Part shown: piece after piece, positions 24,951 through 26,044 of the stretch
Numbering within the stretch: the stretch's first letter is position 1
Layout of the letters: each line of letters starts with the position of its first letter
Position numbers and translations under genes: made by a program
Notes under the pieces: model-generated
Told to the model about the DNA's origin: nothing
The model's database searches: none
Seen by the model: the letters and a program-made list of their open reading frames with translations, nothing else
NCBI GenBank assembly: GCA_902560625.1
Contig: CACEMD010000003.1
Span: 53,260 to 117,259 of the forward strand
Direction: 5' to 3'
Origin: an uncultured Pelagibacteraceae bacterium
GTDB taxonomy: Bacteria > Pseudomonadota > Alphaproteobacteria > Pelagibacterales > Pelagibacteraceae
DNA: 64,000 nucleotides

Positions 24951-24976
24951 TCTTGTGGGGAGCTTTCCCCACAAGC
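24951..24976. other. Strong hairpin between convergent lipoprotein and hsp20 genes
   Basis: CTTGTGGGGA-gctt-TCCCCACAAG inverted repeat; no U-tract 3' of it on either strand. Confidence 0.6.
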
Positions 24977-24987
24977 AAGGCTAAAAC

Positions 24988-25434
24988 TTACTTAATTTCA
25001 ATAAGTTTTTTCTTTTTATATTCTGGTACAATTCTTTCACAAGCAACTGTCAAAAGACCATCTTTAAGTTCTGCTCCATTCACTTTTACATCATCAGCAA
25101 TAGTGAAAGATCTTGCGAATTGTCTTTGAGAGATCCCCTTGTGAATTATCTCACCATTTTCATTTTTGTCATCTGTTTTATTAACTTGCTTTGTTCTTAC
25201 AGTTAATAAATTATCTTCAAACTCAACTTCGACGTCTTTCTTGTTAAAACCTGCAAGAGCAACTTCTATAGAGTACTTGTCCTTACCAGTCTTTCTAATG
25301 TTGTATGGTGGATAATTTGATTGAGTGCTCAAACTTCCATTCCCCAACATATTTTCAAATTGATCAAACATGTCGTCAAAACCAATTGAAAAAGGCCTTA
25401 GTGAGTTAAATATAGATAAATCCTTACTTGTCAT
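24988..25434 (-). CDS. hsp20: Small heat shock protein, Hsp20/IbpA family
   Basis: Alpha-crystallin domain; YSIEVALAGFNKKDVEVEFEDNLLTV; ATG at 25434 preceded by AAAGGAGGAUACU. Confidence 0.93.
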   Translation of the reverse strand: MTSKDLSIFNSLRPFSIGFDDMFDQFENMLGNGSLSTQSNYPPYNIRKTGKDKYSIEVALAGFNKKDVEVEFEDNLLTVRTKQVNKTDDKNENGEIIHKGISQRQFARSFTIADDVKVNGAELKDGLLTVACERIVPEYKKKKLIEIK

Positions 25435-25490
25435 AGTATCCTCCTTTGTTAGCAAGGTTGATGAAAGTCCCAACTGGCAACTTTCAAAAA
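25435..25490 (-). promoter_or_regulatory. ROSE-like RNA thermometer in the hsp20 5'UTR
   Basis: mRNA CCUUGCU-AACAA-AGGAGG (25457-25440): UYGCU motif pairs with the SD leaving one bulged G; upstream hairpin GAAAGU...ACUUUC (25485-25463). Confidence 0.7.
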
Positions 25491-25528
25491 TGATATAATA
25501 ATGATTTAATTTATTTCAAGTATTAAAC

Positions 25529-25963
25529 TTATAAACTATTGATTAATTCTGGAGCGATTTTTTTTGATTTTGCGTTGAATCTAATTTTTTTTATTTGCTC
25601 TAGATTTGATTTGTCTCCATCTACTACTACGAAGCCAATCATTCCCATATTTTTATGTGGTGTACACCAATAAGCATATATTCCTGGTACAGTAAATTTG
25701 TAAACTGCATCTTTATTAAATTTTGATTTAAATTTCTCAACACCTTCTGGAACTCCACCTTTAATGAATTCAACATTATGTCCCTTGGTAGTTGCTTTCC
25801 AAGTAACAATATCTCCTGAATTTATTCTTATAATTTTTTTTGAATAAACCATACTTTCTTTACCTTGTTTATTAAGCATCTCAATTGTTTCATCAGCAGC
25901 AAATAAAGTAGAAGATAATAAAAAGAATATGATTACAGTTTTTCTAAATATGTTTAAAATCAT
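25529..25963 (-). CDS. Pseudoazurin-like type I copper protein
   Basis: Signal peptide; GHNVEFIKGGVPEG; copper ligands in YWCTPHKNMGMIG. Confidence 0.88.
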   Translation of the reverse strand: MILNIFRKTVIIFFLLSSTLFAADETIEMLNKQGKESMVYSKKIIRINSGDIVTWKATTKGHNVEFIKGGVPEGVEKFKSKFNKDAVYKFTVPGIYAYWCTPHKNMGMIGFVVVDGDKSNLEQIKKIRFNAKSKKIAPELINSL

Positions 25964-26044
25964 AATGGACATACATTTGATATAACTAGTATTTTTTTAA
26001 ATTCAATAAACGTAATAGTTACATTACGACACACCAAAAAAACT

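Follow-up and report, generated by a model that had tools for sequence, protein, structure and literature searches.

The window analysed here, a stretch of 64,000 nucleotides from an uncultured Pelagibacteraceae bacterium, carries an hsp20 gene on its minus strand (Table 1). The hsp20 loci nearest to this copy all belong to Pelagibacteraceae (SAR11). The ATG start codon occupies positions 25434-25432, and the leader that runs up to it takes the form of a two-hairpin ROSE-type element (minus strand, 25487-25432). The upstream neighbour on the same strand (25529-25972) encodes a copper-binding protein of the plastocyanin/azurin family, the N-terminus of which is signal-like.

Table 1. Features of the hsp20 locus, in window coordinates (SD, Shine-Dalgarno sequence).
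Feature	Position	Strand	Basis
RpoH (sigma-32)-type promoter: CTTGAA (25520-25515) and -10-like TTATAT (25498-25493)	25493..25520	-	spacing of 16 after TTGAA
Hairpin I: GAAAGUU[G]CC AGUU GGGACUUUC, 9 bp, bulged G at 25478	25463..25485	-	two-sided changes in relatives
Anti-SD strand CCUUGCU (ROSE UYGCU motif), lone G at 25453	25451..25457	-	conservation in relatives
SD AGGAGG, partner of the anti-SD strand in hairpin II	25440..25445	-	sequence and pair counts
hsp20 CDS, 148 amino acids, Hsp20/alpha-crystallin	24988..25434	-	Pfam PF00011, 62 bits
Segment S, ACAAGUAAGG (codons 2-5), with synonymous sites frozen in codons 2-4	25422..25431	-	codon conservation
Segment T, CCUUGCUUG, in the 3'UTR, with 9-10 bp of complementarity to S	24972..24980	-	conservation
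3' hairpin CUUGUGGGG-AAAGCU-CCCCACAAG; its 5' foot is the end of T	24952..24975	-	stem covaries

An earlier sequence-only reading of this DNA had proposed that the leader is a ROSE-like RNA thermometer in which CCUUGCU folds onto the SD with a bulged G and an AACAA loop. The leader sequence that it quoted is exact (minus strand, 25490-25432), and the two strands are able to pair as described. A second hairpin that it had placed just upstream (GAAAGU...ACUUUC) is present but longer than claimed, with 9 bp and a bulged G of its own; its layout in the window is GAAAGU-U-[G]-CC-AGUU-GG-G-ACUUUC. Two further parts of the locus were missing from that account: the sigma-32-type promoter, and a set of frozen start codons with a matching segment in the 3'UTR. 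The genome encodes RpoH (353 bits), and a TTGAA-N12..18-CCATAT-like arrangement was found with at least 4/6 matches in 70 of 75 relatives and with at least 5/6 in 51 (0.3% of shuffles reach at least 5/6). The window's own -10 hexamer matches CCATAT at 4/6 positions. The distance from the end of the -10 element to the hairpin I stem is fixed at 7 nt in 53 of the 70 promoter-bearing relatives. Transcription is predicted to start at the foot of hairpin I, giving a 5'UTR of about 54 nt that would be the element itself.

To follow the element through related genomes, we compared 75 SAR11 hsp20 leaders drawn from Pelagibacterales genomes and parsed by one rule. Hairpin I shows strong covariation across this set, and the UYGCU/AGGAG pairing and its lone G are invariant. 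The site is kept in every Pelagibacteraceae hsp20 leader examined, and essentially every leader of the family reads stem6-Y-[G]-CC-loop-GG-G-stem6, with either CCUUGCU or ACUUGCUU after it and AGGAG last. An alignment of 19 sequences that was not fitted to the structure has both sides changed in five of the nine hairpin I pairs (29 cells versus 8 in shuffles). In this alignment 98.6% of cells are paired over the whole two-hairpin structure, and the covariation score of the structure is 0.39, compared with 0.165 for shuffles and at most 0.094 for slid versions. Both sides are changed in seven of the nine hairpin I pairs among 63 leaders, in an alignment that was fitted to the model. Hairpin II hardly varies in the same 63 leaders: its core has 98-100% paired cells, and the sole informative change in the core is from U.G to C-G, in two leaders. 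The corresponding change of UUGCU to UCGCU is found in most leaders of genus g3 and in one g4 genome. Near-invariance is expected of a hairpin in which one side is the SD, and the case for hairpin II lies in this invariance together with the g3 change. The sequence-only reading had named covariation among SAR11 leaders as a check on its claim, and had tied that claim to conservation of CCUUGCU/AGGAGG in relatives. Hairpin I does covary and hairpin II shows almost no variation; the pairing is conserved throughout, and what variation it has is of the right kind.

We compared 201 bases around the hsp20 leader against 4,227 Rfam families. ROSE_3 (RF02523) was the top match (22.5 bits, E = 0.0087), on the right strand and in a full-length register, with an alignment that ends just beyond the hsp20 start codon. 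The sequence-only reading had suggested a comparison with the Rfam ROSE families, and its outcome is divided: ROSE_3 leads all the families and its alignment is full-length, yet the score remains below the gathering cut-off of 43 bits, both in the window and in a related leader (L049, 23.0 bits). The gathering score is a curation threshold and not a structural feature. At curated cut-offs no Rfam family matched anywhere in the window. A genome-wide search with RF02523 returned chance matches only, in control genomes as well, and the hsp20 site was dropped by the pre-filter; a search over the class gave two sub-threshold matches. Taken with the conservation of the leader, the ROSE_3 match places the structure well beyond chance.

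Covariance models built from the SAR11 leaders were specific to this locus. The model R1 was trained on 19 leaders of the CCUUGCU/UCUUGCU type, with the ACUUGCUU type excluded, and it recovered leaders of the excluded type with E-values down to 1e-12. A model designated R2 had exactly one match per genome, abutting hsp20, in 134 of 197 Pelagibacterales genomes, and no match in ten genomes of the family (f1) that are without a usable hsp20 match. In one genome (G188) hsp20 is cut by a contig end and the RNA element is located on another contig. The runner-up site in the window's own genome scored 14.6 bits versus 70.5 bits for the hsp20 leader. The anatomy of the leader, the covariation of hairpin I, the invariance of the anti-SD/SD pairing and the single hsp20-tied copy per genome are all direct observations. 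The hallmarks of ROSE elements can be recognised among them: a U(U/C)GCU strand pairs with the SD and leaves a G unpaired, invariantly so in 63 leaders; at least one stable hairpin, here the covarying hairpin I, lies 5' of it; and the element sits in the 5'UTR of a small heat-shock gene and ends at the start codon (Pfam Hsp20; one model match per genome at the hsp20 start). By its sequence and predicted structure the leader therefore appears to be a ROSE member new for SAR11, the Rfam score being the only exception among the features tested.

The motif extends beyond the family. UYGCU is present in all of the f1 and f2 hsp20 leaders inspected, and it precedes AGGA in most of those inspected from other Alphaproteobacteria. 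R2 has no match in the sister family f2, whose leaders carry a hairpin of their own, UUUAAUC[G]CU...AGGAUUAAA, and share the UCGCU/AGGA core. Because the motif is common to f2 and to other Alphaproteobacteria, the best reading of the SAR11 element is that of a compact form descended from the alphaproteobacterial ROSE. The f2 hsp20 leaders (L072-L086) contain extra hairpins and a 7-bp outer stem around the SD, and have no Rfam match. The SAR11 element shares with ROSE_3 the order of the two hairpins, the bulged G of hairpin I (U[G]CC...GGG), the pairing of UYGCU with the SD around a lone G, and an AUG just downstream. It differs in being AT-rich, with shorter linkers and a shorter hairpin II (58 bases versus 69 model positions), in having U.G where ROSE_3 has C-G, and in a score far under the gathering cut-off.

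A close parallel is provided by the short ROSE-like thermometers of Pseudomonas ibpA, in which hairpin I is stable and temperature is sensed by hairpin II alone; deletions of single nucleotides that make hairpin II more stable lock these thermometers in the repressed state (PMC3669281). These also have only two hairpins, a stable first and a weak second, behind a sigma-32-type promoter and with a U(U/C)GCU anti-SD strand, although hairpin I of Pseudomonas is G-C rich, unlike that of SAR11, and the Pseudomonas thermometers have been tested experimentally whereas the SAR11 element is known from sequence comparison (PMC3669281). The likeness also bears on a simpler account, in which the leader is a conserved 5'UTR hairpin with a strong SD that serves mRNA stability and is not a thermometer. 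It would fit the fact that the covariation resides in hairpin I, but we consider it highly unlikely: the invariance of UYGCU has no evident reason except pairing with the SD, the motif recurs before hsp20 across Alphaproteobacteria, and ROSE elements of this group have been shown to be thermometers (PMC3669281). We found no earlier report of a SAR11 hsp20 thermometer in the literature searched, subscription literature being outside its scope, and a study of RNAs in P. ubique (Meyer 2009) does not mention one (PMC2704228).

Energy-based folding gave a less uniform picture. The minimum-energy fold of the leader alone does not contain the CCUUGCU/AGGAGG pairing. RNAalifold favours a CCUU/AAGG register for hairpin II, which we rejected as it leaves the invariant GCU unexplained and fails in UCGCU leaders. 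When 15-18 coding bases were added to the leader, ViennaRNA paired the anti-SD strand with codons 3-5. Nearest-neighbour folding predicted no clean melting over 5-45 °C, and its melting curves are uninformative because alternative pairings dominate the model; such models also disregard the non-canonical pairs of ROSE. In silico deletion of the lone G kept the SD closed up to 45 °C in the nearest-neighbour model, in agreement with the locked state that the sequence-only reading had expected of this deletion. The CCUUGCU/AGGAGG register is backed by comparison and not by energy.

The coding start of hsp20 is itself unusually constrained. In 139 unique hsp20 genes of g1 and g5, codons 2-4 (ACA AGT AAG) show 100% identity in every case where the amino acid is conserved, and no others of the 100 conserved codons are near-frozen. 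Elsewhere in hsp20, AGT accounts for 7% of serine codons and AAG for 20% of lysine codons. Neither of two control genes from the same genus, encoding a permease and a phosphoribosyltransferase, has a frozen codon triple, and we therefore rejected frozen starts as a general property of SAR11 genes. In g1 and g5 the anti-SD strand also complements codons 3-5 (25428-25422, minus strand) over 7 bp, a complementarity that is missing in other Alphaproteobacteria. This raises the alternative that the anti-SD strand is held mainly by the coding region (CCUUGCU/CUUGCUU with codons 3-5, AGUAAGG) while the SD is looped, so that the leader would act as a bistable switch and not as a zipper. Bistable switching is the manner of control of lambda cIII. 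ViennaRNA gives this fold for most g1/g5 leaders, and the observed codons fall in the strongest 2-3% of synonymous encodings with respect to this pairing, a fraction that is mostly 0.4-1.0 in other Alphaproteobacteria. The pattern of change among relatives nevertheless makes such a switch improbable. In relatives with altered codons (AGG, AGA, AAA), the leader strand is still CCUUGCU or ACUUGCUU and it is the 3'UTR segment that changes; the leader strand leaves the frozen ACA unexplained in CCUUGCU-type leaders; and the pairing with codons 3-5 is missing in the UCGCU-type leaders of g3. As the leader strand ignores the codon changes that the 3'UTR follows, its complementarity to codons 3-5, at first the preferred cause of the frozen codons, became a less likely one, and is possibly a by-product of the constraint that acts on S and T.

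Segment T follows directly on the stop codon, as CCUURCUUG, in 137 of the 139 unique genes, and its one common variant (A/G) faces a U. The four bases at its foot (CUUG) are frozen although their partners in the 3' hairpin vary. T and the hairpin occur once in a complete genome (G026); with just one copy per genome, T was rejected as a dispersed terminator. Neither is the hairpin a standard intrinsic terminator, since no U-run comes after it. The hairpin lies between hsp20 and a convergent ORF and has a U-run on neither strand. One way to account for T is action in trans, with the 3' hairpin and T set free as a small RNA that would use CCUURCUUG as its seed against the hsp20 start or against other mRNAs. 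The hairpin that has T at its foot is indeed stable and covaries, its 5' strand being frozen and its 3' strand freer, and 3'UTR-derived small RNAs are a known class (PMC5502269), but with no U-run following the hairpin a discrete end is not evident, and we regard this explanation as rather unlikely.

Across 190 unique loci, exceptions to the freezing and the complementarity of S and T are few, as would be looked for in a link of the icaR type. They could instead be constrained for unrelated reasons, S by preferences of the initiation region and T by the folding or processing of the hairpin, with their complementarity a coincidence. A 9-bp match between a start and a 3'UTR is indeed not rare: such matches occur in about 1-2% of genes by chance, hsp20 ranks 22 of 1,314 genes, shuffled gene pairs reach 9 bp 15 times, and start:3'UTR complementarity shows no genome-wide excess over shuffled gene pairs. 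Strict in-register counting found no clean double compensation between S and T. However, codons 2-4 are frozen in partly rare codons, unlike the two control genes, and CUUG is frozen although the bases opposite it in the hairpin are not. Moreover, in the genomes in which G12 of S has become A, T is altered in 4/4 cases versus 2/186 among the others (Fisher 3e-7, a value inflated by shared ancestry). These four joint changes represent perhaps three lineages, need bulges, and are equally readable as joint loss instead of compensation. The leader anti-SD strand is unchanged in the G12-altered genomes, which makes the 3'UTR a likelier partner of the frozen codons than the leader. On balance, coincidence seems unlikely and S and T are probably linked in function.

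What form this link takes is harder to say from folding, as folds of full-length hsp20 mRNAs are split on T:S and disagree between species. A precedent is the icaR mRNA of Staphylococcus aureus, in which the 3'UTR motif UCCCCUG pairs with the SD region (PMC3868564). In both mRNAs a 3'UTR motif complements the translation start region of its own message; the icaR motif lies in a long 3'UTR, while T of hsp20 is within about 30 nt of the stop codon and faces codons 2-5, and the hsp20 pairing, which is predicted from complementarity, would be combined with a thermometer, unlike that of icaR (PMC3868564). The chances of a repressive S:T clamp of this kind come close to even. The fHbp thermosensor of Neisseria meningitidis has a coding region that helps to control the start region, as may be the case in hsp20, with the difference that the fHbp coding region carries anti-RBS sequences and the hsp20 coding segment faces a 3'UTR segment (PMC4999090). 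The description of the Pseudomonas ibpA thermometers shows no start/3'UTR complementarity (PMC3669281).

Our reading, to which we assign a probability of about 0.83, is that the leader of hsp20 represents a minimal RNA thermometer of the ROSE type, with the S/T clamp as a less certain added layer. The thermometer interpretation of the sequence-only reading is supported by the conserved pairing, by ROSE_3 as the best family and by the occurrence of the motif across Alphaproteobacteria, and it is very probably right; by analogy with characterised elements, the leader most likely works like ROSE. RpoH would start transcription at the foot of hairpin I, giving a 5'UTR that consists of the two-hairpin element and little else. 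Hairpin I would act as a stable folding scaffold, while in hairpin II the UUGCU strand would hold the SD by weak pairs, including U.G and the bulged G. We propose that, because the SD is held by such weak pairs, 30S subunits would be excluded at low temperature and admitted once warming opens the short helix; that temperature is the signal, and opening the mechanism, we infer from the analogy to experimentally tested ROSE elements.

In the added layer, S and T would be jointly constrained and would form a long-range clamp that lies over the start region and acts against initiation as well. The hsp20 message might then be subject to two coupled locks, ROSE on the SD and a CCUURCUUG:codons 2-5 clamp that joins the two ends of the message, to be opened by heat or by ribosomes, and that freezes the codons; this combined proposal is tentative, and we hold it a little less probable than the clamp itself. 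If real, the start/3'UTR link would represent a new variant of ROSE and end-to-end control of a thermometer mRNA. SAR11 are among the most abundant cell groups in the ocean and have few transcriptional regulators, so a conserved thermometer before their hsp20 would directly link seawater temperature to translation.

Two further patterns were observed in the 3'UTRs. The form of T with A5 and U10, which is the strongest, was found in 9 of 187 cases, and the two commonest forms, A5/C10 and G5/U10, have near-equal duplex energies. The pattern at positions 5 and 10 could reflect selection for a set stability or just ancestry. In other genera of the family, g2-g4 (L178, L211-L223), the hsp20 codons that encode LSIF are complementary over 8-13 bp to the foot of an unrelated 3' hairpin (AUAUAGRURGRUAGAG-like), with shuffle z-scores of only about -0.3 to -2.7.
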